IMG/VR virus record: IMGVR_UViG_3300042934_000556
Span: 1-56,646 of that record
Reading direction: 5' to 3' (one strand)
Length of the DNA stretch: 56,646 bases
Origin: a virus
Position numbers and translations under genes: made by a program. The notes below the pieces were generated by a model, which worked only from the letters and a program-made list of their open reading frames with translations, did not search any database and had not been told where the DNA came from. Positions 361 to 28,070 of the stretch are shown piece after piece; position 1 is the stretch's first letter, and each line of letters starts with the position of its first letter.

Positions 361-624
361 CTACGAGACGGACGCGAAGGGCTTCCAGTTCTCGGTCACT
401 CTGATGTGGAGGCCCGAAACGTTCTCGGTGATGATCTCCAGAATTGCGTCTTCGATGTCCGCATCCTGAAGTTCTTCTGGAAGTTCGTCGGACGTCCTGG
501 TCACCCGCGCTAGTAGGGCAAGGGAGTGGTGGCCCTGTTCCAGGTCATACTGGAGCCACTCATCCCAATGGGTGAAAGGGTTGTAAGGATTGTCGATGGT
601 GGTGAGCATGTGGTTCTCGCTCAT
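361..624 (-). CDS. Small conserved phage protein, function unknown
   Basis: This 87-residue protein is soluble and acidic, with no membrane segment. Its N-terminal part reads DNPYNPFTHWDEWLQYD, a pattern I recall from many phage proteins of unknown role (recollection, not a search). The start ATG overlaps the stop of the RNA polymerase-like gene by 4 bases, suggesting translational coupling. It is the last gene before the 330-base non-coding region. Confidence 0.75.
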   Translation of the reverse strand: MSENHMLTTIDNPYNPFTHWDEWLQYDLEQGHHSLALLARVTRTSDELPEELQDADIEDAILEIITENVSGLHIRVTENWKPFASVS

Positions 625-3404
625 TCGCCACCTCCACTCAGGCCAGCCTTGAGAGTGGACACCGGGACACCGAGCTGGTCGGCTACCTCGGCAAGGGTGT
701 ACTTGTCACCACGAAGAAGCAGCATGGCCCTGTTCTTGAGGGCAGCGCTCATGACTGGCTTCTCTCTTGGCGTGGCCAGTTCCTTGATCTTTTCTACATC
801 GGTGTTGTCGAGAATCTGCTTCAAGACGTTGTTGCTGACGGCGCCAGCCTGGATCGCTTCCCACTCACGTGGTTCGATCGTGATCTTGTCCTTGCCAGCC
901 TGAAGTCTCATGCGAGCCTCAGCGAGAGCCTTCGACTTGAGCTTCTTCTGCTCGGCTTCCTCCATCTCAGGGTGCGACTCAAGCTTTCGCTTGTAGATGG
1001 CGTTTGCTACGACCTGGGCCTGTCGTTCACGGGGGGCGTTCATGAGTGCCAGGGTCAGCTTGTCCTTGAGCATCTGGACTTCCTTGGCATACACCTTTGC
1101 CGCAGAGGGGGAGCGCTCGATACCCTTGGTCTTGACAAGCTCCTTGCGAGCATCGTTAGCCAGGGACTTCAACCTGTTCGAGTGATCAGCGTAGATCACC
1201 TCGATGGGCTTGCGCTTCTCCGAGACAAGGTCATGAGCGTCGTCCGTCTCAGCAAGCTTTGTGGTCTTGACCATCTTAGGCTTGCCGGGGACGTACTCCT
1301 TACCCGTTTCCACCCACACAAGCTTGCCTGTTTCAGGATCGATCGGACCGCCATCCTTGGCTTTCCGAAGTTCCCTATCGAGAACCCGCTTCTGAGAAGT
1401 GGCCCGAGAGATGATGGTTGAAGCACCACCATCGGCCTGACCAGCAGGCTTGGGCTGATACTTCGACACCAAGGCAGGGATACCGTTGTCGATCGCCGAT
1501 TGCTTGTAATTGAGCTTGTGCTTCTCGGCATCGATGATGACCATGGAATGTCGGACTGCGCGAGCAAGCTCGTTGTCCGTGGCCCCATGAATCGTCATGT
1601 CGGTGATGAGGTTGGAGATCTTCCCCATCTCGGTACCCTTAGCTTTGGGGTTGGCCTTCTCGCCTTCGGCGAACTCGACCTTCTTTGTCTTGGCGTTGTA
1701 CGTGCCTCCGCCCAGAACTCGCATACCATCGTAGCCAGGGTACGCCGACTGAGGATCGAATCCCTTGAGACCCTCGAGTGGCGGACGGGACTTGACCTTT
1801 CCGTGGTTGTTCGGAATGACCAGAACCGTATCACCGTCGAAGTCAGCACCCGACAAGCGCTCTGCCACAGAGTGATGGATACCTACTGCGTCAGGAGCAT
1901 TGCCGAGAAGCTTATTCGCCTGAGGGTGGCGGTTGTTCACAATGAGTTCGGGGATCTCGAAGAGACCTCCGTGCGGGAAGCGAACAAGCGCTACTCGGTC
2001 ACCGTTGTCCAGGGTGGGTGCGTAGATCTCTCGAGGACTCATCGAGTTGATCGGCAGTATGACCTTGGTCGCCTGACGAGGAAGGTGTGCAGCCTTCAGA
2101 TGGACAGCCGACGAATCTGTTGAATCAGCGAACTTCTCCAACAGATGTGCCTTTACGGCATCGTTGGTGAGACTCATGATGGTGTCGAACTCGCTCTTCT
2201 TGGTCTCGTACGTGATGTCGAGTTGGTCCTTGGCGAGCGTCGGCTTCTGCTTGGACAGCATCTGAGATGACAGGCTCTTAGACCATTCATCCCAGTTACC
2301 TTCCTTGTTCACGATGTTCATCGCGGACTCGACGATCTTGTTGCCGTCCTTGTCGCGCATCTCAGTGCCGTCAGGGTTCTTGCGGTAGATCTGGTCATCG
2401 ATGACGGCTCCGAACGGGTCGTCCTCCATCACCTTGCCAGTGTTCTTGTCCCGCTTCATCTCCTTCATGGCGTCGAGCTTGTTGCCCGTGTTCTTCTTGT
2501 TGGTGTTGAACACGAGGTCTACGCCAGGCGGCATGTCGTCGTTGTACATCGCCATACCTTTGAGGTAATGCGTGCCATCGACAGCGATGCGAACCTGTGC
2601 ATAGTTCGACTTTCCAAGCGATACGTCGGGGACCCCGCGACGAACGTAGATGACACCGTCGGCGTCGGTTCCGCCTTCTTCAGCGTAACGGACTTTGACC
2701 CTCTTGGAGTCGATCGAGATCGGAGGACGGATACCGTCGTAGGTGCGACCGCCATCCTTCGACTTGACGAGGATCTGCTGGATCTGATCCCGATTGTCGT
2801 TGACCTCTTTCCAAGGGACTTCAGGACCCGCCAACACCTTCAAGGTCGTGAACTTGCCCGTACCGAGCTGTTCCACCTTGATGTAGTGCATCTTGTAGCC
2901 CTCGTCCTCGAGGAGCTTACGAGCGGCCCTGAGCTTCTCCTTGCTGATGTTCAGGTGAAGCTCGACACCAGCGCCGACGTCGATGTACTTCTTCTTGGCA
3001 ACCTGGTCGCGGAGCATGTCCGCAGTCGACTCGAGGATACTGTTCTCTTCAGCGGCGCCCGGCCTGATGAGCGTCCGGAACGTGGATTCAGGGACACCCA
3101 TCTTCTTGGCTGCAGCGACATTGGAGAGGCCTCGCTCCTTGAGTTGGTTGGCTCGAGCGATGTCAGCGGCCTTTCGGGCTCGCTTGGCCATGGCGGTGGT
3201 GTCACGCAGTTGGGTGGTAGTCATACCGAACCCTTCCGCGATGTCCTTCTCCTTGAGCTCCTGTCGCTTCAGGTCTGCAACCATGGACTGGAAGGTACCT
3301 GCACGCTCGTAAGGCGTCTCACCGGAACCCCAGGGGTAGCGGCCCGACTTGCGTCGGATGCCGTAGTGAACGAGAGCATCACGCTCTTCTGCTTCGATGT
3401 TCAA
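621..3404 (-). CDS. Two-barrel RNA polymerase-like protein with N-terminal HYG tag
   Basis: 927 residues. Residues 519-527 read GADFDGDTV, matching the metal-binding DFDGD signature of the beta-prime/QDE-1/YonO double-psi barrel. Just before it (about 449-518) is a stretch resembling the rest of that barrel. Around 275-305, HYLKGMAMYNDD and following residues could be the lysine-bearing first barrel. Helix-turn-helix-like segments lie at about 52-66, 90-112 and 900-920. Residues 13-28 (HYGIRRKSGRYPWGSG) are a variant of the tag on the head-gene block. It starts with TTG overlapping the upstream TGA, with GGGAG before it. A YonO- or crAss-like single-chain RNA polymerase is the best guess; a structural protein with a degenerate barrel is the alternative. 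Confidence 0.6.
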   Translation of the reverse strand: MNIEAEERDALVHYGIRRKSGRYPWGSGETPYERAGTFQSMVADLKRQELKEKDIAEGFGMTTTQLRDTTAMAKRARKAADIARANQLKERGLSNVAAAKKMGVPESTFRTLIRPGAAEENSILESTADMLRDQVAKKKYIDVGAGVELHLNISKEKLRAARKLLEDEGYKMHYIKVEQLGTGKFTTLKVLAGPEVPWKEVNDNRDQIQQILVKSKDGGRTYDGIRPPISIDSKRVKVRYAEEGGTDADGVIYVRRGVPDVSLGKSNYAQVRIAVDGTHYLKGMAMYNDDMPPGVDLVFNTNKKNTGNKLDAMKEMKRDKNTGKVMEDDPFGAVIDDQIYRKNPDGTEMRDKDGNKIVESAMNIVNKEGNWDEWSKSLSSQMLSKQKPTLAKDQLDITYETKKSEFDTIMSLTNDAVKAHLLEKFADSTDSSAVHLKAAHLPRQATKVILPINSMSPREIYAPTLDNGDRVALVRFPHGGLFEIPELIVNNRHPQANKLLGNAPDAVGIHHSVAERLSGADFDGDTVLVIPNNHGKVKSRPPLEGLKGFDPQSAYPGYDGMRVLGGGTYNAKTKKVEFAEGEKANPKAKGTEMGKISNLITDMTIHGATDNELARAVRHSMVIIDAEKHKLNYKQSAIDNGIPALVSKYQPKPAGQADGGASTIISRATSQKRVLDRELRKAKDGGPIDPETGKLVWVETGKEYVPGKPKMVKTTKLAETDDAHDLVSEKRKPIEVIYADHSNRLKSLANDARKELVKTKGIERSPSAAKVYAKEVQMLKDKLTLALMNAPRERQAQVVANAIYKRKLESHPEMEEAEQKKLKSKALAEARMRLQAGKDKITIEPREWEAIQAGAVSNNVLKQILDNTDVEKIKELATPREKPVMSAALKNRAMLLLRGDKYTLAEVADQLGVPVSTLKAGLSGGGE

Positions 3405-13507: not shown

Positions 13508-16500
13508 TCAGACCGAGCAGAACTCATCGGCGTTGCCGAACTGAGCGATGGACTGGTACGCCTCCTCGGCGACCTGGTTGTAGTACGCCACGTCGATGAT
13601 GTCCGCGATGGACCCGGTACCCGAGACGGCGTCGTCCAGGTTCTCGAACACCATCCGGTCGACGGCTTCGGGATACAGCAGACGGATGGCCTCCGCCTCC
13701 AGCCAGGAATATCCCTTGGTACCGCTGACCGCGAACTCCTTGCCGTCCTTGATACGAAGAAGCTCCCCACCCTTGACGACGTCCTGATCCGGGTTGATCG
13801 GGACGAACATGCCGGACCGGCCGACGTGCGTGTCCTCGTCCTCGGGAGTCTCCGTCGTGAGCGCCTCGTCCTTAGGCTCCCCGATCTCCTTCACGGCCCC
13901 GTTGAACCGGAGGTACATGGCACCCTCCTTGACCTGCTTGGTCTCACACAGATCCTTGAAGTAGATCGGCTCGCCGGTGAACAACTTCTTGAAGACGTAT
14001 GGGTGCTTGAACTCCGCGCCAGTAGCCGACCAGTAGCCGACCGGGTCGCCCTCCGGCGCCCATCCGACGTAGGCGATGTACACGGCGTCGTTGACGAGGC
14101 ACATCTTCTTGTAGGTGGACTCGTGCTTGAACTCGTAGCCGTACTTGGCACCGAAGTCCTTCACGAACTGAATGATCTCCGGAGTGGCCCCCGGGATCTT
14201 GACCGAGTCGGTCTTGATGTGGGCAACCGTGACGCCCTTCTCCTGGAGCGCGTGCTTCAGGTCGATCATGAAGAGCGCACCGCGCTTGGCGACGATGTTG
14301 TCCTTGTTGCGCGGGTCTCTAGCCGGGTTGTCGAACTTCGCCGACGTGTAGCCGTAGGTCGAGTTCGCCACCAGCTTCAGCGACTGCTCGAGGTTCTTGA
14401 AGGCCTTCTTGCGCTCCTTCGGGTCCTCGATCTTCTGAATCTCCTCGATATGCGGGCGGAGCTTGCCCTCCAGGAGACCCTTGGCGTACTCGTAGTCGCC
14501 CTCCTTGATGGAGAGACGGGCTTCGAGGATCGCGGAGTACTTCGCCGTGTAGGGGCCGAACAGGTTCAGCTTCACGATCGAAGTCGGGTGCATCGAGGCG
14601 ACGTCCAGGAGAGCGACGTTCTCGTACATGCCCGGTTCCGCGTAGACGTAGCCACCCTCGCCGACGACCTCACCCCGGTAGGTGCTCTTGTCGACCTTGG
14701 CGTACTCGTCGAACTTGTAGCCCGGGAACATCTTCGACAGGTCGGTGTACACAAACGACCGCTGCGGGTTCCGCTCGTTGCCGAACAGGATGCGCATGAC
14801 GTGCGTGCGAGTCGAGTGATTGACGGTGAGGCCGCTGAGGTCCGCCAGGATCTGCCGGGCGATGAAGTCCTGCTGGCAGTGGTTCCAGACTACCTCGAGG
14901 GCGTTGACGTCGTTCTTGCAGTATTCGACGACCTGCTTGATCTTGTTCTTCGGGACCGGCTTGTCCCAGGGAATATCCATCTCGACATGCGGGAAACCGA
15001 GCTCGATCTCCCACTTCTTCAGAGACTTCTTGTCCGAGGAGAAGTCGTACACGTCGGCGTAGGACGCGTTCCAGGCGCTGGCGAACTTCGCCGCGTTGTC
15101 GTTCTCGTTGATGATCCGCTGGGAGAGGTGGTAGAGCTCCTCGTTGTTCATGCCGAGCATCCGACCCCAGAGGATATGGTTGTCGTACCCCCGGTTGTTG
15201 AAGCCGACCAGCTTGAAGTTCTTGACGAGGTTCTCGACCTCCGACGGAGTCGGTTCGATCATCGCGGTGACGGTCGAGGAGCCGAGGTACTTCCAGCAGA
15301 TCACGAAGAGATTCTGGTAGACCTCGCAGTCGAAGAATACGATGCGGCCGTTCTCGGCACTCTCGTTCTTCACGATCTCCGGGCTGTCCTCCAGAGAGGC
15401 CTCCGACTGGAAGTCCATCCGGAAGACGGTCTTCAGGCAGATATCCTTCTGGTTCGTGCTGTTGTTGGCGAGCGTCATGAGATCAGACCTCATGTCGGTC
15501 AGGTCGAAGGGGACTCCCCTCCTCTTGGCTTCGCCGAGGATATGGGCGGCGAAGTCGATGTTCTGCTTGGTACTGCCGAACTCCTTCCTCAGGCATCGGA
15601 CGAGCATGTTCCGGAGACCTTGCTCAGTCTTGATGGTGTTGTCTGTCAACACAGTCTTCTTCTCCCTGATGGGCAGTCCACCGCTAAGGGTGGCTACCGC
15701 GACGTTATTGCACCTCGTCAGCTTCCGTCGGAGTGACGCGTTCCCCGTGTACACCTTGATCTCGATACCGGGGGCATACTCCTTGGCCAGCTCGTTGACA
15801 TCGCCGTCGTAGATATAGTGCAGGTGGACACCCTTGCCGCTCTTGCTGATCTCGGCGTAGGTATGCGGCCAACCGTCGGCAGCCGCCTCCATGCTCCGTT
15901 CGAGCGACTTGGTCTTACCGTCGTCTTCGGTCAGGTCGAAGTCGATGACGATGTGGTACTCGGGGACCTTGAGAAAATGGAGCTCCGAAGTGTCAAGATC
16001 ACCGAGGACCGTGGATACGACCTGGTTGGGCTTGGGGGTGAAGGTCTCGCCCTTCTTGTTGATGCGCTCGGAGTCATCCCAGTAGAGCTTCGGGTTGCCT
16101 GCAGCATTCGCATACTGCGCAGGATATCCGGCGTACATCTCATCCAGGATCGACTCGGTCTCGTCCATGGCCAGGGTAAAGGCCGTGCGCTTCGAGTTGG
16201 TAACCTGAGTTCGGTACTTCTGGGCTCGGAACACCTTGTAGACGCTCCTTACAGAACTCCCGTCGAAGACCGCTCGGTCGTGGAACTCTTCGAAGTAGTC
16301 CTTCAACTGCTCGCGGAAGTGGTACTTCTTCATGGACCAGCCGAGCTTGCTGTCTTCCGCCCAGTTGTTGAAGAGGGCCCAAGCTTGGGTGAGAGTTGTG
16401 CCGTCCTTTTCCTTGAAGATATCGAAGTGATCGTCGATGAAGTTGGCGAACGGATCGGTGTTGAGGATCATGCGCTCGGGCTTGTAGTCGTTGTATGCGC

Positions 16501-17521
16501 CACGACCGCCCTTCGCCTTGTAGACCTCCAGACAATGGTGGGCGATCGCACCCAGCTCGAACTCCACCCTCGCCATGAGAGATCGGTAGTGGTTGAACTC
16601 GAGCGTGATACCTGTCGGGTTCACGTCAATAAGACGACGGATCAGGCCTGACTTGGAGTCACTGATTTTGACAGGCTTGTTCGTCCCCATGAACAGGAAC
16701 GCGTCGATGACCATCTCGTAGCCGGGCTTGTGCTTTTCGTTGATGATCATCTTGTCGTGACCAATCACCGAGTTGAGCACGCTGTTGTCCTCGATCTTGG
16801 ACAAGTCCCCGTCGTGCTGGACCGCAACCAGGGGGTTTGTCTTGAAGACCGCCGTGGCGAAGGCGTTGTTAGAACCAACCAACGCCTTGGCCTCGAACAT
16901 GCCGACGTAGCCCTCGAAGAGCTTCTCGATGATCTTCATGATGGTCGACTTACCGGTGCCGGGCTCTCCGAAGAAGACCACGAACTTCTCGATCTTCTTT
17001 GACTCTCCGGATACGATGGCTCCGATCGACCATTCGATCTTCTCGCGTTCCTCGTCGGAATATAGAGTACCCACGAGTTCATCCCAGGCACTGAAGTCAC
17101 CCGGGGCGAGATTGTACGGAAGCCTCTTGCTGACGAAGTCGTTCTTCTTGACCTCCGTGTTAAGGAAGGTCAGTTTTCGGTCGAGCTGCTTGGCGTCGTC
17201 GCTAGCATTCTTGAGGTACTGCTTGTACTGCGTCCACTGCTTGGAGTTGTGCGAGCGGAGGAGTTTCACGTTGCACGGAGTGCCGGCTTCCTTCAACTGC
17301 CTAGCGTAGGCCAGAAGGGCTTCGTCCACCGCGTCCTTGACGTCGTACTCGCGGGTAGACCAGAGACCCTCCTTCTCGTTCCACATGGCGTAGAACGACT
17401 GCCCACGGACCATGAGGTCCTTGGAGTTCCCGACGATGAAGTCGGGGTAGATCTCCACCGGTTCGCCTTCCTTGCGGGGAGGTTTCGTGCACACCTGAAA
17501 GAAATCCAGTTTCGATTCCAT
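13508..17521 (-). CDS. Single-chain replicase: SF3 helicase, AEP primase, 3'-5' exonuclease and family B polymerase
   Basis: 1337 residues. About 145-330 is an SF3/D5-type helicase (Walker A GEPGTGKST 185-193). About 500-620 resembles an archaeo-eukaryotic primase: D-x-D in IDFDL (526-530), GKGVHLHY (563-570) and IEIKV (586-590). About 726-875 is a DEDDy proofreading domain (DCE 731-733, FNNRGYDN 774-781, YCKND 867-871). About 965-1200 is the PolB palm: motif A DVASMHPTSI (D973), KLVANSTYGYT (1049-1059), motif C IKTDS (1102-1106, with K in place of the first Asp of DTD). Ribosome site AAGGAGG precedes the ATG. It could supply most of the replisome alone. Confidence 0.85.
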   Translation of the reverse strand: MESKLDFFQVCTKPPRKEGEPVEIYPDFIVGNSKDLMVRGQSFYAMWNEKEGLWSTREYDVKDAVDEALLAYARQLKEAGTPCNVKLLRSHNSKQWTQYKQYLKNASDDAKQLDRKLTFLNTEVKKNDFVSKRLPYNLAPGDFSAWDELVGTLYSDEEREKIEWSIGAIVSGESKKIEKFVVFFGEPGTGKSTIMKIIEKLFEGYVGMFEAKALVGSNNAFATAVFKTNPLVAVQHDGDLSKIEDNSVLNSVIGHDKMIINEKHKPGYEMVIDAFLFMGTNKPVKISDSKSGLIRRLIDVNPTGITLEFNHYRSLMARVEFELGAIAHHCLEVYKAKGGRGAYNDYKPERMILNTDPFANFIDDHFDIFKEKDGTTLTQAWALFNNWAEDSKLGWSMKKYHFREQLKDYFEEFHDRAVFDGSSVRSVYKVFRAQKYRTQVTNSKRTAFTLAMDETESILDEMYAGYPAQYANAAGNPKLYWDDSERINKKGETFTPKPNQVVSTVLGDLDTSELHFLKVPEYHIVIDFDLTEDDGKTKSLERSMEAAADGWPHTYAEISKSGKGVHLHYIYDGDVNELAKEYAPGIEIKVYTGNASLRRKLTRCNNVAVATLSGGLPIREKKTVLTDNTIKTEQGLRNMLVRCLRKEFGSTKQNIDFAAHILGEAKRRGVPFDLTDMRSDLMTLANNSTNQKDICLKTVFRMDFQSEASLEDSPEIVKNESAENGRIVFFDCEVYQNLFVICWKYLGSSTVTAMIEPTPSEVENLVKNFKLVGFNNRGYDNHILWGRMLGMNNEELYHLSQRIINENDNAAKFASAWNASYADVYDFSSDKKSLKKWEIELGFPHVEMDIPWDKPVPKNKIKQVVEYCKNDVNALEVVWNHCQQDFIARQILADLSGLTVNHSTRTHVMRILFGNERNPQRSFVYTDLSKMFPGYKFDEYAKVDKSTYRGEVVGEGGYVYAEPGMYENVALLDVASMHPTSIVKLNLFGPYTAKYSAILEARLSIKEGDYEYAKGLLEGKLRPHIEEIQKIEDPKERKKAFKNLEQSLKLVANSTYGYTSAKFDNPARDPRNKDNIVAKRGALFMIDLKHALQEKGVTVAHIKTDSVKIPGATPEIIQFVKDFGAKYGYEFKHESTYKKMCLVNDAVYIAYVGWAPEGDPVGYWSATGAEFKHPYVFKKLFTGEPIYFKDLCETKQVKEGAMYLRFNGAVKEIGEPKDEALTTETPEDEDTHVGRSGMFVPINPDQDVVKGGELLRIKDGKEFAVSGTKGYSWLEAEAIRLLYPEAVDRMVFENLDDAVSGTGSIADIIDVAYYNQVAEEAYQSIAQFGNADEFCSV

Positions 17522-21640: not shown

Positions 21641-21650
21641 GGCTACCTTT

Positions 21651-21680
21651 CGAAAAACCCAAACCCCTTGCGGGGTTGGG
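21651..21680 (-). terminator. Cassette-type intrinsic terminator
   Basis: Minus-strand RNA reads AACCCC-GCAA-GGGGTT followed by TGGGTTTTTCG. It lies just after the 21690-21842 gene and matches the terminators that follow the small genes between 24.6 and 27.8 kb. Confidence 0.8.
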
Positions 21681-21689
21681 AAATGAGTG

Positions 21690-21842
21690 TTACGCGGTCA
21701 GTTCCTTCTTGGGCTCTTCGTCAGGGCCAAAGTACTCGTCAGCCTGCTTGTTTATCACCTTTTCGATCTTCCCGAGAAGAACGGCGGCGAGTCCAGCAGC
21801 GAGGAATTTGACGATATCCTTCTTATTCTGGGGCTTGAGCAT
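21690..21842 (-). CDS. 50-residue membrane peptide, cassette gene
   Basis: ATG at 21842 with GATTGGA upstream. One membrane helix (about 11-23, FLAAGLAAVLLGK) follows a short basic N-terminus; the tail is acidic. It has its own 35-bp promoter (21861-21895) and terminator, the outlying member of the array at 24.6-28.5 kb. Confidence 0.7.
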   Translation of the reverse strand: MLKPQNKKDIVKFLAAGLAAVLLGKIEKVINKQADEYFGPDEEPKKELTA

Positions 21843-21860
21843 GAGAGGGCGTCCAATCGT

Positions 21861-21895
21861 TAGGGGTCTCATTATAGGCCTTGTGAAATATGCGA
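21861..21895 (-). promoter_or_regulatory. Cassette promoter 1
   Basis: Minus strand: TCGCA, four free bases, TCACAAGGCC, TATAAT (21876 to 21871), GAGACCCCTA. The TATAAT lies 28 bases from the start of the 50-residue gene. Differs from the consensus by TCACA for TTACA. Confidence 0.85.
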
Positions 21896-21908
21896 GGAGC
21901 CTAGGGTG

Positions 21909-22049
21909 TCACTTTCTCGGTCCCGTGTTGAAGATTCGACATACGTGGAGTGAGACCTCCCACCGCGAACAACGCTTCTTTCTTGCGCACTCTTCGTGGG
22001 TCTTCTTGCATCGCGGGCAGCAATTCGACGGAATGGATTCCTTCTGCAT
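21909..22049 (-). CDS. 46-residue cysteine-rich protein
   Basis: ATG at 22049 with GGAG seven bases upstream. Six cysteines (CCPRCKKTHEEC, then C and C) and a very basic composition suggest a small zinc-binding, nucleic-acid-contacting peptide. The stretch between it and 22223 (about 170 bases) holds several overlapping short frames with poor ribosome sites; I cannot support a gene there. Confidence 0.5.
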   Translation of the reverse strand: MQKESIPSNCCPRCKKTHEECARKKRCSRWEVSLHVCRIFNTGPRK

Positions 22050-22222
22050 TATGTCGCTCCGATACCGAGTACGAATATGGCGCGATGAGCGGGGCGCATG
22101 TTCCTCACGTTGGGGGAGTCATGAGCTACGGCTGTCGTTTGGTCGACCAGCATCCGGAATATGGTTTCGGGAGACCCCTCCCACCGTCGCCATTGCTGGT
22201 CGCCCCGTTCATCATTGTTGCG

Positions 22223-22747
22223 TCAGGCCGCGTTGCCCGTCTTTCGCTTCATGGCGATCATGGTGTGATGCTTCGACCACTGCATCGGGTTCTTGCCTGC
22301 GACCTTCATGAAGTCCTCGTCGGACATGGCGAGGAGCTCGTCGTCGTTGTACTGACGCTCCTGGGTTTCGCTCTCGGCGATCTTCTTCTGGATGTCGGCG
22401 GGCATGATCGAGATGAAGAACGAGAACCCGGCGTCGGGCATCTCGACCAAATCGGCGAAGAACGCCTCGTAGGCACCACACCCCTTAAAGCGTCGTATGA
22501 CACCCGCGTCCTTGATGATGAGGTCGTCCTCGCGGATGCCGACCGAGCGGAACAGCATCTCCTGCCAGAGGTCCAGCATCCGACGGCTGTCCTCGTTCTC
22601 GACGATCTCCTTGAGGTACGTGCCGGGGTCCTTCATGTGGGCCAGTTCCATCTCGGCCATGTCGGTCTTGCCGAGGGAGAAGTACCACTCGGACTGGACG
22701 TCGGTTCCGTCGGGGGTCTGGTGGCTGATGATCTTGCGGACGGGCAT
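22223..22747 (-). CDS. Conserved phage protein resembling a tail assembly chaperone
   Basis: 174 residues from the ATG at 22747. The pattern (EWYFSLGKTDMAEMELAH, LWQEMLFRSVGIREDDLIIKDAGVIRRF, AYEAFFADLVEMPDAGFSFFISIMP) recalls proteins often described as tail chaperones in other phages. It sits outside the tail module, however, and a different chaperone candidate lies at 41737-42279. Treat the role as unproven. Confidence 0.6.
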   Translation of the reverse strand: MPVRKIISHQTPDGTDVQSEWYFSLGKTDMAEMELAHMKDPGTYLKEIVENEDSRRMLDLWQEMLFRSVGIREDDLIIKDAGVIRRFKGCGAYEAFFADLVEMPDAGFSFFISIMPADIQKKIAESETQERQYNDDELLAMSDEDFMKVAGKNPMQWSKHHTMIAMKRKTGNAA

Positions 22748-22782
22748 TGCTTTCTCGTTTCTCTTCGATTTAACAAGCGGAA

Positions 22783-22820
22783 GGGGCGGCACGCAGAATA
22801 TGACTTCCACGTACCGCCCC
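22783..22820 (-). terminator. Intrinsic terminator after 22840-23214
   Basis: GGGGCGGUACG pairs with CGUGCCGCCCC as minus-strand RNA (11 pairs with one U-G wobble, 16-base loop), followed by UUCCGCUUGUUAAAU. The weak U-run makes partial termination likely. Confidence 0.6.
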
Positions 22821-22839
22821 GACCTTCAACGGGTGTTGA

Positions 22840-23214
22840 TCAGGCGTTCTCGGCGAGCACCTGCTCGTTCTCGCCGGTGATGACCTGGAGGTCGACCTCG
22901 TCCTCGCTGAGGGTCTCCTCGTCGGCCTGCTTCGCGGCGAACTTGGCGAAGGCCACGGCGGCCAGGGCCACGGAGACGGCGACTCCGGCGACGACCTTCT
23001 TGTTCTCCTTGAGCTTCTCGGTCACGGAGACCAGGCGCTCCTTGAAGGACTTCTTGCCGCCCTCGATGACCTCCAGCTCCGGGGCCTCGGTGGTCTCCTC
23101 GATGACCTCCAGCTCGGAGGCCTTCTCGCTCTGCGCCGGGACGACCAGGTTCTCCTCGGCGGCCTGGGCGGCGACGGACTCGGCGGTGACCTTGGTGTTC
23201 TTGTTGTTCGACAT
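22840..23214 (-). CDS. Membrane-anchored acidic protein
   Basis: 124 residues from the ATG at 23214 (GGAG upstream). A Glu-rich N-terminal half with the near-repeat ELEVIEETTEAPELEVIEGG is followed by a Lys-rich stretch and one membrane helix (about 74-92, VVAGVAVSVALAAVAFAKFA), then an acidic tail ending ENA. It shares the anchor-plus-acidic-tail design of the cassette proteins. Confidence 0.7.
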   Translation of the reverse strand: MSNNKNTKVTAESVAAQAAEENLVVPAQSEKASELEVIEETTEAPELEVIEGGKKSFKERLVSVTEKLKENKKVVAGVAVSVALAAVAFAKFAAKQADEETLSEDEVDLQVITGENEQVLAENA

Positions 23215-23228
23215 GCTCTTGGGCTCCT

Positions 23229-23315
23229 TCAGTTTCCGAAAATATCGTTCGGGTGGCTTGTGTGGTACTCGTACGCGGCGATCCAATATGGATTACCGCG
23301 AGGGCCCCAATCTCT
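23229..23315 (-). other. In-frame open extension beyond the UGA of the 23316-24095 gene
   Basis: Directly after the TGA at 23318-23316 the same frame stays open for 28 codons without an ATG, GTG or TTG start, and reads like protein (RDWGPRGNPYWIAAYEYH...), ending at TGA 23229. Either the UGA is sometimes read through or the gene was recently shortened by a nonsense change. Confidence 0.4.
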
Positions 23316-24095
23316 TCAATAGAGCTGGGCGTACCTGTGATTCGGTCGGTTGACGAAGTCGATGGCGAGACACGGGACGTTGTTCTTCGTGAGCGCCGAC
23401 GTGTAGTTGAGTTCGAGCTTGTCGTTGGAGTCCCAGCCGAGGTCGTCGGAGGCGCCGATGGGCGTCAGACCCAGAAGGTGGTAGAACTCCGTCAACGACA
23501 GGTGTGTGCTGTTGATCAGCTCGTGGTTGAAGTCGTTCACGGCCTTACGAATCGTCTCCATGTCACTGACGAAATATCGATCCGACCACTTGTCCCAACA
23601 TAGGACGCTTCCCTGCTGAGCGGCGAGAGCGAGTACCGTCTGGCCCGGAGGGTTCGCTGTGATGCGGTCCTGGACGATCTCGTCGCGGATCGCCTGCTCC
23701 TTGTTCTTACCGACCTTCTTCAGCGTCTTCTCGCGGTACTCCTTGAAGCTCTTCTCGGCGAACGCGTAGGCCGATGCCATGGCAGCCGCCCGGCGCTCAC
23801 TCACGCGGTTGGCGCAGATGGTCGCCGTGACGGTCATGGCCAGGCAGGTCGCTGCCGGGATGTACAGCTTCCAGGTGAGCTCGGCCTTTCCCTTGAACGT
23901 GTTGAAGTGTTCGGCTTCCTCGGTGGTGGAGATCTCCACTTCCGCTTCTCCGAGAACCTTGGCGGCCTGGAAAGCTGCCTTGGCGGCCAAATATACGGAT
24001 GTGACAGCGCCAGAGACGCTTAGTGCGGTCAGAATCGCCGGAGAGTTGTTTGCGGCGACCTTACCTGCACGCTGGAACAGCGCGCTGAAGTCCAT
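23316..24095 (-). CDS. DUF6353-like membrane protein
   Basis: 259 residues. NNSPAILTALSVSGAVTSVYLAAKAAFQAAKVL (about 16-48) and LYIPAATCLAMTVTATICANRV (about 77-98) are the paired hydrophobic segments typical of DUF6353. The charged helix between and after them is also typical. The C-terminal part (HLSLTEFYHLLGLTPIG) weakly resembles the module in 18773-19699 and 20306-20776. AGGAG before the ATG. Confidence 0.8.
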   Translation of the reverse strand: MDFSALFQRAGKVAANNSPAILTALSVSGAVTSVYLAAKAAFQAAKVLGEAEVEISTTEEAEHFNTFKGKAELTWKLYIPAATCLAMTVTATICANRVSERRAAAMASAYAFAEKSFKEYREKTLKKVGKNKEQAIRDEIVQDRITANPPGQTVLALAAQQGSVLCWDKWSDRYFVSDMETIRKAVNDFNHELINSTHLSLTEFYHLLGLTPIGASDDLGWDSNDKLELNYTSALTKNNVPCLAIDFVNRPNHRYAQLY

Positions 24096-24186
24096 GATTG
24101 AAGCTCCTGTCGTGTCGCCGTGTTGGCGATTCTGATGCGTGGTTTGGTTCTACTTCTCGTTCTTGGGGAGAGGGGTGATCAGATTC

Positions 24187-24504
24187 TTACGCATTGTCTC
24201 TCTCCTTCTTCGCTTCCTCGAAGCGCTCGTTCGCCTCGTCGGAGAACTCGTTCGAACCCGTGTTGTACTGGGCGTAGACGTCATCGTCACTGATGCGAAC
24301 GTGGCGGTAGAGCATCGACTCACCAGCCTCGAGTTCCTCCATCGTCGATGGGGGAACCGGAATTGTCGACCAGCCGTCGCCGTAGTGGTCTGCCTCGAAC
24401 TTTTCGAGTTCGTTCTTATACTTCACCGCGAGAGACGTGGCGACGACCGTCCCGACGACTCCGGCGATGGTCGGAATATGGCGCTTGAGCTGTCGCAGCC
24501 TCAT
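24187..24504 (-). CDS. Membrane-anchored protein, start uncertain
   Basis: 105 residues from the ATG at 24504 (GAGGT upstream); a GTG at 24561 would add 19 residues but lacks a ribosome site. One membrane helix (TIAGVVGTVVATSLAVKY) near the N-terminus and an acidic C-terminal half. A 14-codon frame after it (MRKNLITPLPKNEK) is noted but not supported. No cassette promoter directly upstream. Confidence 0.6.
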   Translation of the reverse strand: MRLRQLKRHIPTIAGVVGTVVATSLAVKYKNELEKFEADHYGDGWSTIPVPPSTMEELEAGESMLYRHVRISDDDVYAQYNTGSNEFSDEANERFEEAKKERDNA

Positions 24505-24585
24505 CTTCAGAACCTCGCGCCGGAGCTGGTTCTTCGTCTTACCCGTCACTTCACCGAACACAGGGGGCAGCCCTTCTGAATATGG

Positions 24586-24613
24586 CGAAACCCAAACCCC
24601 ATGCGCGGGTGCG
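24586..24613 (-). terminator. Cassette-type terminator, imperfect stem
   Basis: Follows the 24634-24828 gene. The conserved GGGGTTTGGGTTTCG 3' part is intact, but the 5' arm (ACCCGCGCAT) pairs over only four or five bases. Confidence 0.6.
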
Positions 24614-24633
24614 CTGAGGCGTGGGTCTTGAGG

Positions 24634-24828
24634 TCAGTTCTCGTCTTCGGGGGTGTAGAACTCGTTGTAGAGGCCCTTCTCCTTGAGGAACTCGTCGTGC
24701 TGCTTCAGACCGATCTTCAGCAGTACCGCCGCGCCGGTGGCGGCAACGGTGGTGACTGCGAGGATCTTGGTCTTGTTCTCGACGATCTTGTCCTTGGCGG
24801 AGGTAAGGGCCTTCTTGGCGGCGTTCAT
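24634..24828 (-). CDS. 64-residue membrane peptide, cassette gene
   Basis: ATG at 24828 with GATTGGA upstream. Basic N-terminus (AAKKALTSAKDKIVENKTK), one membrane helix (about 21-37, ILAVTTVAATGAAVLLK) and an acidic tail ending DEN. Own promoter and terminator. Likely inserted in the host membrane with the acidic tail outside or in the cytoplasm; role unknown. Confidence 0.75.
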   Translation of the reverse strand: MNAAKKALTSAKDKIVENKTKILAVTTVAATGAAVLLKIGLKQHDEFLKEKGLYNEFYTPEDEN

Positions 24829-24852
24829 AACACGTCCAATCTGGTTAGAGGG

Positions 24853-24887
24853 TAGGGGTCTCATTATAGGACGTGTAATTCTTGCGA
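24853..24887 (-). promoter_or_regulatory. Cassette promoter 2
   Basis: Minus strand: TCGCA, AGAA, TTACACGTCC, TATAAT (24868 to 24863), GAGACCCCTA. The distance from TCGCA to TATAAT is 14 bases, as in all ten copies. The start codon lies 34 bases beyond the TATAAT. Confidence 0.9.
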
Positions 24888-24900
24888 GGGTAGGTTAACC

Positions 24901-25098
24901 CTACGAACGCCTCGACTTTCCGTACGTGCTGCTCTTGATGCGACGGTTGACGTCCTTGGCGTAGGCCCGGCGGCCCTGGTAAGCGCCGATCGCGTTGATC
25001 ACCTTTCCCGCCGCCGCGAGCGCCACGGAAATGACTCCGATGACGGCTACCGGGTTGTTGTTGAACTCTTCCTTGAGCCGCTTCAGACCTTCGTTCAT
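24901..25098 (-). CDS. 65-residue small membrane protein
   Basis: ATG at 25098 overlaps the previous stop (ATGA) with AGGGGAG upstream. One hydrophobic segment (about 17-37, VAVIGVISVALAAAGKVINAI) and a basic tail. It is the last gene of a three-gene run (25381-24901) with no cassette promoter of its own. Confidence 0.65.
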   Translation of the reverse strand: MNEGLKRLKEEFNNNPVAVIGVISVALAAAGKVINAIGAYQGRRAYAKDVNRRIKSSTYGKSRRS

Positions 25099-25289
25099 GC
25101 TTCACTCCCCTTGGAATATGACTTGACCGACTTCGCCAGTTGCCGCATGGCGATTCCGGTGGCGACCTTGAGACCCAGTACGACGACCAGGTTGATAACG
25201 ACACGTCGGAACGGAGGGTCCCAGAAGGGCTCGTTCTCGATAACTTCTTCCTCTTTAGGAAGTAGCGTCACCAGCTTTGGTGGTTCCAT
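25095..25289 (-). CDS. 64-residue small membrane protein
   Basis: ATG at 25289 overlaps the stop of the 30-residue gene (TAATG). An acidic N-terminus (LLPKEEEVIENEPFWDP) precedes a membrane helix (about 30-46, VVINLVVVLGLKVATGIA). Function unknown. Confidence 0.65.
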   Translation of the reverse strand: MEPPKLVTLLPKEEEVIENEPFWDPPFRRVVINLVVVLGLKVATGIAMRQLAKSVKSYSKGSEA

Positions 25290-25381
25290 TACTTGTACCA
25301 CCAATCCCAGATCCATCCGGCCAGCTTTCCCGCGCAACACCCGATCGCCAAACAGGATATGATCGTAACTAGAATGTCCAC
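25289..25381 (-). CDS. 30-residue membrane peptide
   Basis: GTG start at 25381 with AGGAGGGAC upstream. It begins (M)DILVTIISCLAIGCCAG and ends in the aromatic cluster WIWDWWYK, a typical membrane-interface anchor. Stop overlaps the next ATG. It starts just after terminator 25399-25429, without the 35-bp promoter. Confidence 0.6.
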   Translation of the reverse strand: MDILVTIISCLAIGCCAGKLAGWIWDWWYK

Positions 25382-25398
25382 TAACTGTCCCTCCTAGG

Positions 25399-25429
25399 CG
25401 AAACCCAAACCCCTTGTGGGGGTTCGGGC
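25399..25429 (-). terminator. Cassette-type intrinsic terminator
   Basis: Minus-strand AACCCCC-ACAA-GGGGTT, then TGGGTTTCG, just after the 25436-25624 gene. Confidence 0.8.
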
Positions 25430-25435
25430 TTGAGG

Positions 25436-25624
25436 TCAGTTCTCGTTGGTGGTCTTCTTGGTCTTCTTGGCCTCCTTCTTCTCCAGGTATTTCGCGTAGG
25501 CGAGGCCGACCGCGAGGAATCCGGCAGTGGTGGCAGCCGACATAGCGGCGCCCACGGCGAATGCCTTGGCGATCTCCTTGCCGAAATTGATGTCCTGGGA
25601 CTCGGTGGAGGTGTTGTTGTCCAT
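25436..25624 (-). CDS. 62-residue membrane peptide, cassette gene
   Basis: ATG at 25624 with GATTGGA upstream. Polar N-terminus, one Ala/Gly-rich helix (about 19-44, KAFAVGAAMSAATTAGFLAV) and a Lys-rich tail ending TNEN. Complete with its own promoter and terminator. Confidence 0.75.
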   Translation of the reverse strand: MDNNTSTESQDINFGKEIAKAFAVGAAMSAATTAGFLAVGLAYAKYLEKKEAKKTKKTTNEN

Positions 25625-25646
25625 GAGAGGTTTCCAATCTAAAGGT

Positions 25647-25681
25647 TACGGGTCTCATTATAGAGCATGTAATTCTTGCGA
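25647..25681 (-). promoter_or_regulatory. Cassette promoter 3
   Basis: Minus strand: TCGCA, AGAA, TTACATGCTC, TATAAT (25662 to 25657), GAGACCCGTA. TATAAT is 32 bases from the ATG of the 62-residue gene. Confidence 0.9.
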
Positions 25682-25719
25682 GTTTTGCCCAAAATACCCG
25701 CTCGGGAAATTTTGGAAAA

Positions 25720-25750
25720 CGAAACCCAAACCCCTTGTGGGGGTTCAGGC
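25720..25750 (-). terminator. Cassette-type intrinsic terminator
   Basis: AACCCCC-ACAA-GGGGTT then TGGGTTTCG on the minus strand, after the 25758-26048 gene. Confidence 0.8.
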
Positions 25751-25757
25751 TTTGAGG

Positions 25758-26048
25758 TCAGTTCTCGATGTTGGTGTTGTTCATGATGGAAAGGTAGTAG
25801 ACGTCGTCCATCTCGCTCTGCTGGACGATCAGGTCCTCGCGCTCCAGGAGCGCCTTCTTGTCGTCGCCGGTCACCTCCGGAAGGGGCTCGAACTCGACCT
25901 CCACCTCGGGCGCCTGGGCGGCGTTCTTGATGGAGTTGAGCACGAGCACCGTGGAGGCGGCGGCTGCGGTGAAGGCGATCACGCTGGGGGCGTAGGTCTT
26001 GATCTTCTGCTTGAGGGTGGCGAACTTCTCGTTCTTCTTCTCGTTCAT
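25758..26048 (-). CDS. 96-residue membrane protein, cassette gene
   Basis: ATG at 26048 with GATTGGA upstream. Lys-rich N-terminus, membrane helix (about 21-40, SVIAFTAAAASTVLVLNSI), then a long acidic soluble part (EVEVEFEPLPEVTGDD...) ending NIEN. The largest acidic tail among the cassette proteins. Unknown function. Confidence 0.75.
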   Translation of the reverse strand: MNEKKNEKFATLKQKIKTYAPSVIAFTAAAASTVLVLNSIKNAAQAPEVEVEFEPLPEVTGDDKKALLEREDLIVQQSEMDDVYYLSIMNNTNIEN

Positions 26049-26066
26049 GGTAAGTCCAATCTAGAG

Positions 26067-26101
26067 TAGGGGTCTCATTATAGGGCATGTAATTCTTGCG
26101 A
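26067..26101 (-). promoter_or_regulatory. Cassette promoter 4
   Basis: Minus strand: TCGCA, AGAA, TTACATGCCC, TATAAT (26082 to 26077), GAGACCCCTA; 28 bases from TATAAT to the ATG. Confidence 0.9.
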
Positions 26102-26109
26102 GGACATGT

Positions 26110-26138
26110 CGAAACCCAAACCCCTTGTGGGGTCGGGT
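26110..26138 (-). terminator. Cassette-type intrinsic terminator
   Basis: ACCCC-ACAA-GGGGT with TTGGGTTTCG after it on the minus strand, just past the 26145-26390 gene. Confidence 0.8.
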
Positions 26139-26144
26139 CTGAGG

Positions 26145-26390
26145 TCAATCTTGGTCGGCGCTCTTGGTTTTCTTGACGGCGATCTGACTCACGGTGTCGA
26201 TGGCCTTGACGGCGGCGTAGACTCCGATCGCGGCGAGAGTGACATGCTTCACCAACGTCTTTCCGTGGTCGGCGATGGCCTTGACGGTTTCGGGGTGAAG
26301 AATATGGGTCTCTTCGGGAGCGGAGTCGTCAGCCTTCTTGTTCTTGGGCTTGTCGACGAACGTGAGCTGAACGGCCTTCTTCTTGAACAT
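26145..26390 (-). CDS. 81-residue cassette protein with one hydrophobic segment
   Basis: ATG at 26390 with GATTGGA upstream. Here the order is reversed relative to the other cassette proteins: a polar N-terminal half (FVDKPKNKKADDSAPEET) and a C-terminal hydrophobic stretch (about 50-69, VKHVTLAAIGVYAAVKAIDT), then a Lys-rich end. Function unknown. Confidence 0.75.
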   Translation of the reverse strand: MFKKKAVQLTFVDKPKNKKADDSAPEETHILHPETVKAIADHGKTLVKHVTLAAIGVYAAVKAIDTVSQIAVKKTKSADQD

Positions 26391-26406
26391 AGCGGGGTCC
26401 AATCGG

Positions 26407-26441
26407 TAGGGGTCTCATTATAGGCCGTGTAATATGTGCGA
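26407..26441 (-). promoter_or_regulatory. Cassette promoter 5
   Basis: Minus strand: TCGCA, CATA, TTACACGGCC, TATAAT (26422 to 26417), GAGACCCCTA; 26 bases to the ATG. It starts 8 bases after the stop of the 26449-26679 gene, with no terminator between. Confidence 0.9.
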
Positions 26442-26448
26442 AGGCCTG

Positions 26449-26679
26449 TCAGAACAGCTCGTCGTCGACGATCTGCTTCCAGAAAATGACCGACTCTACC
26501 CGACGTTTCGGGTCGTCCTCGTACATCCGCATCTGATCTTCGAATGCCTTGTGGTACGTACGGATGCGAGCGTTCTTGTCGAAGCTTCGCTGGTACCTCC
26601 GCTGAGCAAGAACTGTCCCTATTGCCGATGACGCTACGGCTCCAACCACAACGAGTGCGAAGAAGAGCTTTCCGTTCAT
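26449..26679 (-). CDS. 76-residue membrane protein
   Basis: ATG at 26679 with GGGGAGGG upstream, a different ribosome site from the cassette genes. N-terminal membrane helix (about 4-22, LFFALVVVGAVASSAIGTVL) then a basic helical region. It follows terminator 26714-26744 and has no cassette promoter, so it depends on read-through or an unrecognised promoter. Confidence 0.65.
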   Translation of the reverse strand: MNGKLFFALVVVGAVASSAIGTVLAQRRYQRSFDKNARIRTYHKAFEDQMRMYEDDPKRRVESVIFWKQIVDDELF

Positions 26680-26713
26680 GGTTCCCTCCCCGAAATATGA
26701 TGACCCCTGGCGG

Positions 26714-26744
26714 CGAAACCCAAACCCCATGTAGGGGTCCGGGC
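26714..26744 (-). terminator. Cassette-type intrinsic terminator
   Basis: GACCCC-TACA-TGGGGTT-TGGGTTTCG on the minus strand, after the 26751-26969 gene. Confidence 0.75.
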
Positions 26745-26750
26745 TTGAGA

Positions 26751-26969
26751 TTAGTTCTCGATCTTGTCCAATGTCAGCTTAAGCTTGAAGCCTTCGCGCT
26801 TCACATTGAAGTGGTAGAGGCCGTCTTCAACGCTTTCGTTAATCCCACCCTGATTCTGCAGTACGCTATAAAGCCACTGGTTGCGAGGGGTGAGGTTTCC
26901 GATAGCGTCCCAACGACCGTTACCAACGATAATGGTGAGGGGCGTGAGGTCCTTCTTCTTGCGGAACAT
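26751..26969 (-). CDS. 72-residue soluble cassette protein
   Basis: ATG at 26969 with GATTGGA upstream. Unlike its neighbours it lacks a membrane helix; it looks like a small beta-sheet protein (LTIIVGNGRWDAIG, YHFNVKREGFKLKLTLD). It ends in IEN, like several other cassette proteins. Function unknown. Confidence 0.75.
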   Translation of the reverse strand: MFRKKKDLTPLTIIVGNGRWDAIGNLTPRNQWLYSVLQNQGGINESVEDGLYHFNVKREGFKLKLTLDKIEN

Positions 26970-26983
26970 AGTGATCCAATCGG

Positions 26984-27018
26984 TAGGGGTCTCACTATAG
27001 GACGTGTAATCCTTGCGA
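26984..27018 (-). promoter_or_regulatory. Cassette promoter 6
   Basis: Minus strand: TCGCA, AGGA, TTACACGTCC, TATAGT (26999 to 26994), GAGACCCCTA; 24 bases to the ATG. TATAGT replaces TATAAT. Confidence 0.9.
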
Positions 27019-27056
27019 GACCTCTAGAGAATCACTCTCATTTTGACCCCGAGCGG

Positions 27057-27085
27057 CGAAACCCAAACCCCATGCGGGGTAGGGT
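27057..27085 (-). terminator. Cassette-type intrinsic terminator
   Basis: ACCCC-GCAT-GGGGT with TTGGGTTTCG after it on the minus strand, past the 27093-27293 gene. Confidence 0.8.
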
Positions 27086-27092
27086 CTTGAGC

Positions 27093-27293
27093 TCACTCGT
27101 CAAACGTACCGTTGTCGACGAAGTAGTCCACGGCCACTGCGATCATCTCTTCGACACTCGTCACCTGTCCGGCCTTGAGCTTTTCGCTGAGGTGGGCGAT
27201 GTAGCCATTCACCATAGCGAACTGCTCGAGGTCTAGGTAACGGAGTCCGATGAGCTGAATCGAAGTGATCTCGAGGATCTGCTTGTGCAGCAT
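27093..27293 (-). CDS. 66-residue soluble cassette protein
   Basis: ATG at 27293 with GGAAGG upstream. All-helical and acidic (LRYLDLEQFAMVNGYIAHLSE, VEEMIAVAVDYFVDNGTFDE), no membrane helix. The ORF could extend upstream only through the promoter, so this start is preferred. Unknown function. Confidence 0.7.
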   Translation of the reverse strand: MLHKQILEITSIQLIGLRYLDLEQFAMVNGYIAHLSEKLKAGQVTSVEEMIAVAVDYFVDNGTFDE

Positions 27294-27308
27294 TGGTAAG
27301 CCTTCCGT

Positions 27309-27343
27309 TAAGGGTCTCATTATAGGCCTTGTAAAGCTTGCGA
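27309..27343 (-). promoter_or_regulatory. Cassette promoter 7
   Basis: Minus strand: TCGCA, AGCT, TTACAAGGCC, TATAAT (27324 to 27319), GAGACCCTTA; 25 bases to the ATG. Confidence 0.9.
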
Positions 27344-27357
27344 GACCCCTAACGGAG

Positions 27358-27388
27358 TAAACCCAAACCCCTTGCGGGGGTCTGGACT
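27358..27388 (-). terminator. Cassette-type intrinsic terminator
   Basis: ACCCCC-GCAA-GGGGTTTGGGTTTA on the minus strand, after the 27395-27700 gene. Confidence 0.8.
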
Positions 27389-27394
27389 TTGAGG

Positions 27395-27700
27395 TCAGTT
27401 CTCGTCGGGGACGGGGGTCATGATGAACATTGGTTCGTCGCGGCCGTTGTAGAAAGTGACGGAGTGACCGGTCTCGCGGACGTGCTTGGCAGCATCGTTG
27501 ACTTCTCGGATCTTCGCATCGGCGGCCTCCACGTCCTTGAGCGTCTCAGCGATGTCCTCTCGGACTTCGTCGATGCGCTTGATGACGTGGAGACAGAACG
27601 CTGCGGTGGCGAGGCAGCCAGCGACGATGGCAGCATCTACTGCGATCTGGTTCTCCTGGTACTTCTTCTTGGCCTTCTCGAACTTCTGCTTGATGTTCAT
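27395..27700 (-). CDS. 101-residue membrane protein, cassette gene
   Basis: ATG at 27700 with AAAGGA upstream. Lys-rich N-terminus, membrane helix (about 20-40, VDAAIVAGCLATAAFCLHVI), coiled-coil segment (RIDEVREDIAETLKDVEAADAKIREVNDA) and a C-terminus ending PDEN. Complete cassette with promoter and terminator. Confidence 0.75.
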   Translation of the reverse strand: MNIKQKFEKAKKKYQENQIAVDAAIVAGCLATAAFCLHVIKRIDEVREDIAETLKDVEAADAKIREVNDAAKHVRETGHSVTFYNGRDEPMFIMTPVPDEN

Positions 27701-27719
27701 GAGCGGCTGTTCCTTTCGT

Positions 27720-27754
27720 TAAGGGTCTCACTATAGGGCGTGTAAAATATGCGA
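27720..27754 (-). promoter_or_regulatory. Cassette promoter 8
   Basis: Minus strand: TCGCA, TATT, TTACACGCCC, TATAGT (27735 to 27730), GAGACCCTTA; 29 bases to the ATG. Confidence 0.9.
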
Positions 27755-27761
27755 CCCTCGA

Positions 27762-27791
27762 CGAAACCCAAACCCCATGTGGGGTCCGGGC
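27762..27791 (-). terminator. Cassette-type intrinsic terminator
   Basis: GACCCC-ACAT-GGGGTT-TGGGTTTCG on the minus strand, after the 27798-28016 gene. Confidence 0.8.
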
Positions 27792-27797
27792 TGAAAC

Positions 27798-28016
27798 TCA
27801 GTCCTTCTTGGTCTCAGATATGCTCTCGCACTGCGCGACGGTCTGGTCGATGGTCTCGAAGGCTCTGTCCCACCCAGCCGTGAACCCGTCGATGAACTGC
27901 ATACGGCCGAGGACTTCGAGGTCTTCAGCCTGATGACGGTTCTTCTTCCGGTTCAGGATATAGGGGGTGCAGATTCCTGCGATGACACCGAGCAGAGCAG
28001 CGATAGCGATGGTCAT
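27798..28016 (-). CDS. 72-residue membrane protein, cassette gene
   Basis: ATG at 28016 with GAAAGG upstream. Signal-anchor-like N-terminal helix (MTIAIAALLGVIAGICTPYI), then a basic patch (NRKKNRHQ) and an acidic helical domain. The positive patch after the helix suggests the C-terminus stays in the cytoplasm. Confidence 0.75.
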   Translation of the reverse strand: MTIAIAALLGVIAGICTPYILNRKKNRHQAEDLEVLGRMQFIDGFTAGWDRAFETIDQTVAQCESISETKKD

Positions 28017-28035: not shown

Positions 28036-28070
28036 TAAGGGTCTCATTATAGGCCTTGTAATATGTGCGA
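28036..28070 (-). promoter_or_regulatory. Cassette promoter 9
   Basis: Minus strand: TCGCA, CATA, TTACAAGGCC, TATAAT (28051 to 28046), GAGACCCTTA; 29 bases to the ATG. Confidence 0.9.

Follow-up and report, generated by a model that had tools for sequence, protein, structure and literature searches.

The window analysed here is the whole of the IMG/VR virus record IMGVR_UViG_3300042934_000556, a stretch of 56,646 nucleotides. Our subject is the open reading frame (ORF) at 621-3404 on its minus strand, which an initial annotation had proposed as a candidate virion-carried RNA polymerase. The predicted product, referred to below as the polymerase, has 927 aa and belongs to the family phrog_4291 (1447 bits over residues 2-924 in PHROGs). 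Its gene occupies the distal end of the replication block, and its TTG start codon overlaps with the stop codon of the exonuclease-like gene upstream. The ORF and its catalytic motif DFDGD (residues 521-525; 1830-1844, minus strand) were located as claimed, and all five residues of the motif are invariant in the 53 homologues (46-100% identical) of our alignment set. Helix-turn-helix (HTH) regions lie at both ends of the protein. The N-terminal one, at about residues 41-114 (3063-3284, minus strand), matches the DNA-binding family phrog_664 of PHROGs over residues 41-113 (E 3e-5); its Pfam HTH_3 match is weak, and residues 31-113 form helices in the AlphaFold model. The C-terminal one, at about residues 890-922 (639-737, minus strand), matches Pfam HTH_23 at 26.6 bits (cut-off 24.6) and resembles sigma-70 region 4 (Sigma70_r4_2, E 2.5e-5, slightly under cut-off).

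Streptomyces phages including Popy, DrGrey and Rima have polymerases 92% identical to this one. Among the matches listed, relatives were found in 250 phage records, 249 of which cover at least 80% of the protein; the hosts are Streptomyces, Arthrobacter, Gordonia, Rhodococcus, Microbacterium, Curtobacterium and Lactococcus, and gut phages are also represented. Most of the phage records listed annotate the homologue as an 'HTH DNA-binding protein', and phrog_4291 is annotated in PHROGs as 'RNA-dependent RNA polymerase', with a like name in RefSeq.

A direct search of the Protein Data Bank (PDB) with the polymerase sequence gave no meaningful match, so the fold was derived from structure. An AlphaFold model built on the 53 relatives (mean pLDDT 79.8, pTM 0.58) was compared with PDB entries using Foldseek, and the sole significant matches were two-barrel polymerases, namely QDE-1 (E 1e-9), plant RDR2, and the phage proteins P74 gp62 and P23-45 gp64 (E 6e-7 to 2e-6 for the two). 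Alignment with VIA-align gave Z scores of 12-14 over polymerase residues 228-759, with a sequence identity to QDE-1 and RDR2 of 10-15%. This range aligns with QDE-1 residues 681-1186 at Z 14 and takes in both QDE-1 barrels, DPBB1 (690-792) and DPBB2 (916-1018); the barrels of the polymerase are thus read from the aligned range of a model with pTM 0.58 rather than from a strand-by-strand trace. DFDGD falls in the part of the model aligned to the QDE-1 segment that bears its catalytic aspartates. Mean column conservation among the 53 homologues is 0.74 over the catalytic barrel region and 0.98 over the DFDGD segment. Two lysines, K282 and K303, are invariant and lie in the region expected for the barrel 1 lysines, a possible correspondence to QDE-1 K743 and K767 judged by region and not by superposition.

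On the strength of this model, the product of ORF 621-3404 is a single-chain two-barrel RNA polymerase with predicted catalysis. The initial annotation had called it a two-barrel polymerase related to QDE-1, YonO and crAss gp66, and the matches to QDE-1, RDR2 and the P23-45-group proteins gp64 and gp62 bear out the fold, the QDE-1 match spanning both of that enzyme's barrels. As for the named kin, QDE-1 was upheld by structure. No relationship to YonO of SPbeta was detected by sequence with hhalign (probability 3.6% over 19 columns, at a sensitivity limited by the single sequence on one side). The phi14:2 protein gp66 was not among the PDB matches listed for the model, which does not in itself exclude a relationship. 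Pfam RdRP (PF05183) was also considered as a family assignment and set aside, its match (E 0.04) being below the family cut-off.

Residues 13-28 of the polymerase (3321-3368, minus strand) read HYGIRRKSGRYPWGSG, as first described, and form an N-terminal tag with the consensus HYGxxRxSGRYPWGSG in the 53 relatives. Its core is invariant in all of them, at H13, G15, S20-Y23 and S27. Mean column conservation is 0.86 in the tag, against 0.34 in residues 1-12 and 0.45 in residues 29-40, a pattern that rules out chance. Residues 1-23 have pLDDT values below 50 in the model and are predicted to be disordered. A peptide that is conserved but disordered has the look expected for a short recognition signal.

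The initial annotation had further taken this tag to be a variant of those on proteins at 47.8-54.4 kb. Six window proteins in that region match Pfam DUF7211 (PF23847) through their tags; the motif spans 25 residues (HYGVKGMKWGVRK), and Pfam lists its function as unknown. Seven tags of the KGMKWG type, at 48.3-54.3 kb, are spread over the six proteins. The polymerase, with its tag of the form HYGxxxxSGRYPWGSG, does not match DUF7211, and the link between the two tags therefore needed a test. When proteins lacking a DxDGD motif were searched for the polymerase-type tag HYGxxxxSGRYxxGSG, it turned up on neighbours of terminase and portal in contigs L484, L489, L497, L498 and L500. The tagged protein of L484 (also numbered G106), encoded immediately upstream of the terminase, has homologues with the KGMKWG tag at that position in other phages, with E 1e-5 against its Bifidobacterium phage counterpart. 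The window protein at 53804-54385 aligns with this same set, in which the G106 member bears the polymerase-type tag instead. Contig L500 has both tag types, on adjacent genes, and an unusual form of the tag, HYGVGHDKGGHSGRYPWGSG, is common to head proteins of L498 and to the polymerase of another phage, L078. The phrog_4291 profile also picks up six head-cassette proteins of contig G136 via the tag (best E 7e-9).

Since terminase-flanking proteins elsewhere carry the exact polymerase-type tag and the profile matches are based on the tag, the best reading of the two tags is a single signal that occurs in two forms, which agrees with the relationship first proposed. On head-cassette proteins the polymerase-type tag replaces the DUF7211 tag in the same place, and this shared place suggests the same role. 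Head tags also accompany the polymerase: the head-tag pattern was found in 22 of 29 polymerase-bearing contigs (a reversed-pattern control gave zero matches), and under looser matching each of the 19 polymerase-bearing genomes that were read completely or almost completely had one or more tagged head-cassette proteins.

The head genes of the window, all on the minus strand, include one at 43847-45895 for a protein that combines a prohead protease and the major capsid protein (Peptidase_S78 and Phage_capsid; phrog_3270, head maturation protease), the fusion forming one protein of 682 aa. The portal protein lies at 46404-47753 (Phage_portal, E 4e-17), and tagged proteins lie at 47790-48446 (phrog_6291; DUF7211 E 2e-10), 48448-49281 (DUF7211 E 4e-13; a HENSH motif in the translation) and 49285-49989 (DUF7211 E 1e-11; a HESAH motif, with the tag at the extreme N-terminus). 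The HExxH-like motifs in these last two neighbours suggest packaged metallopeptidase-like proteins. At 49986-50960 a doubly tagged protein (two DUF7211 stretches, E 4e-22) has a GNAT acetyltransferase domain (Acetyltransf_1, E 1e-10) between its two tag copies and is a candidate second head-carried enzyme. The terminase large subunit at 52043-53788 (TerL_nuclease, E 1.5e-35) is flanked by a tagged protein at 50990-52030 (phrog_7502, PHROGs E 1e-87; DUF7211 E 2e-13) and, immediately upstream, by the one at 53804-54385 (phrog_11022; tag and family from Pfam and PHROGs).

A second set of features consists of a 35-bp promoter-like element, TCGCannnnTTACAnGnCCTATAATGAGACCCCTA, with ten copies on the minus strand between 21.8 and 28.5 kb, each just upstream of a small ORF. 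Its core is TCGC-N15-TATAATGAGACCCCTA, and the small genes that it precedes are presumably early. The copies, of the form TCGC-N15-TATAATGAGACCC, lie at 21861-21895, 24853-24887, 25647-25681, 26067-26101, 26407-26441, 26984-27018, 27309-27343, 27720-27754, 28036-28070 and 28497-28531. Repeated CGAAACCCAAACCCC(A/T)TGNGGGG elements near small-gene ends at 21650-27803 are possibly terminators, so that each small gene looks like a promoter-gene-terminator cassette. Many of the small genes behind the elements look membrane-associated. The ORF at 18773-19699 matches DUF6353 (E 7e-66), and that at 23316-24095 is similar by eye.

With a weight matrix derived from the ten window copies, strong sites numbered 10-11 per phage in three further Streptomyces-type phages, 7-8 in two from Gordonia and 11 in one from Rhodococcus; Arthrobacter and gut phages had few or none, and shuffled sequence had none. 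Looser inspection revealed variants of the element in the Arthrobacter phage Mudcat, in gut phages and in Lactococcus phage 1706, where the variant TTTTACA-N5-TATAGTAGAA is repeated eight times. The spacing is strongly fixed: across 19 genomes TCGC-N15-TATA[AGT]T occurs 131 times, whereas any other spacing gives about 5; in control phage DNA the N15 spacing occurred 3 times against 3.1. Sites lie between the structural and replication blocks or inside the replication block, and the structural block is free of them save for isolated, probably chance sites.

The association of the element with the polymerase was examined using two scans of viral contigs by short DNA patterns of the element alone, blind to the polymerase. 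With the first pattern (CTATAATGAGACCCCTA), phrog_4291 was present in 29 of 44 contigs, and in 17 of the 19 that were at least 42 kb long. With the second (TTCGC-N8-CA-N5-TATAATGA), it was present in 30 of 35 contigs of at least 38.9 kb. A control scan using an extended sigma-70 promoter gave 28 contigs, none of which exceeded a trivial 37-residue match to phrog_4291. Among the element contigs without the polymerase, G059, G080 and G091 seem to be truncated short of the genome end at which the gene lies, and G078 and G099, which show no terminase or tags, look partial. Contig G074 has a single, probably chance, site, and G046 has none of the TCGC form.

Support for virion association comes from Lactococcus phage 1706, whose ORF75 is an orthologue of the polymerase with the tag present. 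The original 1706 record (EU081845) gives the label 'structural protein' both to ORF75 and to ORF7, the latter with HKGVKGMKWG. Map position does not account for the label, because ORF14-16 of the tail region are labelled 'unknown' in the same record. A later RefSeq copy renamed ORF75 as an RNA-dependent RNA polymerase. The 'structural protein' label of ReqiPoco6 gp106 was given by similarity to 1706 gp75, and the Faecalibacterium phage paper contains no virion proteomics for Oengus. The claim of virion packaging in the initial annotation thus finds good, if indirect, support in the structural labels of the 1706 orthologue and of a tagged 1706 protein, and in the promoter-like elements before presumed early genes.

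Our best explanation is that ORF 621-3404 encodes a virion-carried, single-chain, two-barrel DNA-dependent RNA polymerase. The protein would be synthesised late in infection and docked into the prohead by its disordered N-terminal tag, a member of the DUF7211 tag family, and would enter the host with the DNA at infection. It would then start at TCGC-N15-TATAAT promoters, with no host sigma factor, and transcribe the small genes situated between the structural block and the replication block; its own N- and C-terminal HTH domains may recognise these promoters, standing in for a sigma factor. If the promoters of the presumed early genes do belong to the polymerase, the case for carriage gains by it, because without carriage there would be no enzyme to act on them until it had first been synthesised. 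What computation shows is the two-barrel fold, the conserved catalytic motif, the conservation of the polymerase tag, its equivalence to the head tags, and the joint occurrence of polymerase, tags and element throughout the family; we consider a tag-loaded virion transcriptase reading early promoters to be, taken as a whole, probably the right interpretation.

Several points weigh against it. Activity, packaging and injection are predictions; the 'structural protein' entry for 1706 is a record label that may or may not go back to mass spectrometry; and the early status of the small genes is deduced from map position. The tag might place the polymerase at the portal for a role that does not involve injection. 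Four polymerase carriers (G022, G025, G026 and G028) have few or no exact TCGC-N15-TATA copies. A major tail protein of the window is distributed over phage hosts almost as the polymerase is. Genes for the polymerase, the tail and the head are passed on together within one lineage, and the co-occurrence of element and polymerase is therefore partly common descent. Another conserved phage protein, working with the host polymerase, could read the element.

One other possibility is a phage RNA polymerase that is made after infection and stays out of the virion, with the tag serving, for example, contact with portal or terminase during assembly. Precedents are provided by YonO, which transcribes late genes, and by P23-45 gp64, which shares the fold and is not a virion enzyme (PMC5467207, PMC10770324), and the position of the gene at the distal end of the replication block would suit such a role. 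However, the lack of the element in the structural block, its placement before presumed early genes, the tag common to the polymerase and the head-cassette proteins, and the structural label of the 1706 orthologue argue against it. We regard this possibility as unlikely.

Doubtful as well is a division of roles in which TCGC-N15-TATAAT is a promoter for the host polymerase, aided by another phage factor, and the tagged polymerase is carried but has other sites or another role. The -10 box is a perfect host-type TATAAT, and the co-travel of the genes means that co-occurrence cannot single out the reader of the element. Against this, a TTGACA-like -35 box 16-18 nt upstream is not found beyond chance (mean best match 2.29 of 6, compared with 2.46 at random positions), and a sigma-70 scan calls none of the ten window sites; a sigma-70-type host promoter was rejected as an explanation of the element on the missing -35 box. 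Phages whose hosts belong to different genera also share box, spacing and a downstream GAGACCC, variants occur in Firmicutes phages and gut phages, and the polymerase has DNA-binding-like domains of its own. An RNA-dependent enzyme, acting on RNA by, for example, copying transcripts, is suggested by the PHROGs and RefSeq names and by the RNAi polymerases QDE-1 and RDR2 being the closest solved folds, but is very improbable given that the tested single-chain phage members, YonO and the P23-45 enzymes, transcribe DNA (PMC5467207, PMC10770324) and that both the HTH domains and the promoter-like elements speak for DNA as the template.

Other features of the window touch on genome structure and replication. 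A 176-bp direct repeat at the record ends (1-176 and 56471-56646, 99% identical) suggests a complete genome assembled past its ends. The ORF at 13508-17521 encodes a protein of 1337 aa that joins a helicase/primase-like ATPase domain (DUF5906) to a family B DNA polymerase (phrog_4210).

Should the virion-carried transcriptase prove true, at least 249 sequenced phages, many of them isolated on laboratory strains, would possess a simple, portable polymerase delivered to the cell together with their DNA, as well as a head-loading peptide and a short promoter read by the polymerase. DUF7211 would gain a function, the start of transcription without a sigma factor would be explained, and the annotations 'HTH DNA-binding protein' and 'RNA-dependent RNA polymerase' would need correcting. 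The enzyme and its promoter would also offer a two-part expression system. More broadly, we lean somewhat towards the view that a portable N-terminal peptide, in interchangeable KGMKWG and SGRYPWGSG forms, is a general head-loading signal in a large group of phages of Gram-positive hosts. One of its cargoes would be a sigma-independent, single-chain polymerase with TTCGC-N15-TATAAT early promoters, forming a tag-loaded type of virion transcriptase that differs from the tape-measure-fused and the giant crAss and N4 forms.

Virion-carried polymerases are already known as a class, from N4, crAss-like phages and P23-45 gp96, and phrog_4291 is an annotated protein family. In open-licence papers, we found no prior description of a stand-alone peptide-tagged siphophage polymerase, of the equivalence of the two tags, of the KGMKWG tag or of the promoter element, whose string gave two unrelated matches only. 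Nor did these papers yield a tag, promoter or injection role for 1706 ORF75 or phrog_4291. ORF75 belongs to the same protein family as the window polymerase but is more distant, the Lactococcus members listed being 35-38% identical. Among solved structures, QDE-1 and RDR2 come closest in fold (Z about 14 over residues 228-759), but they are eukaryotic RNAi enzymes and are not known to bear a tag.

YonO of Bacillus phage SPbeta is, like the window polymerase, a single-chain enzyme of about 100 kDa with a catalytic Asp triad and predicted barrels; it transcribes late genes (PMC5467207), and hhalign detected no sequence relationship between it and the window polymerase. The virion RNA polymerase of crAss-like phages (phi14:2 gp66; crAss001) is likewise of the two-barrel class and is expected to be ejected into the host, but the RNA-polymerase-associated virion proteins of crAss001 are giants of 155-277 kDa in podoviruses, for which the text consulted describes no portable short tag (PMC10172136). 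Further phage parallels are P23-45 gp64 and gp96 and P74-26 gp62, which share the single-chain two-barrel fold and a siphophage setting with the window polymerase (Foldseek E about 1e-6, Z about 12; PMC10770324). Of these, gp96 is carried in the virion and transcribes pre-early genes (PMC10770324). It is fused to the tail tape measure, whereas the window polymerase is free, with the tape-measure ORF at 32648-38122 separate from its gene, and has a head-type tag, an HTH at both ends and a different promoter element.

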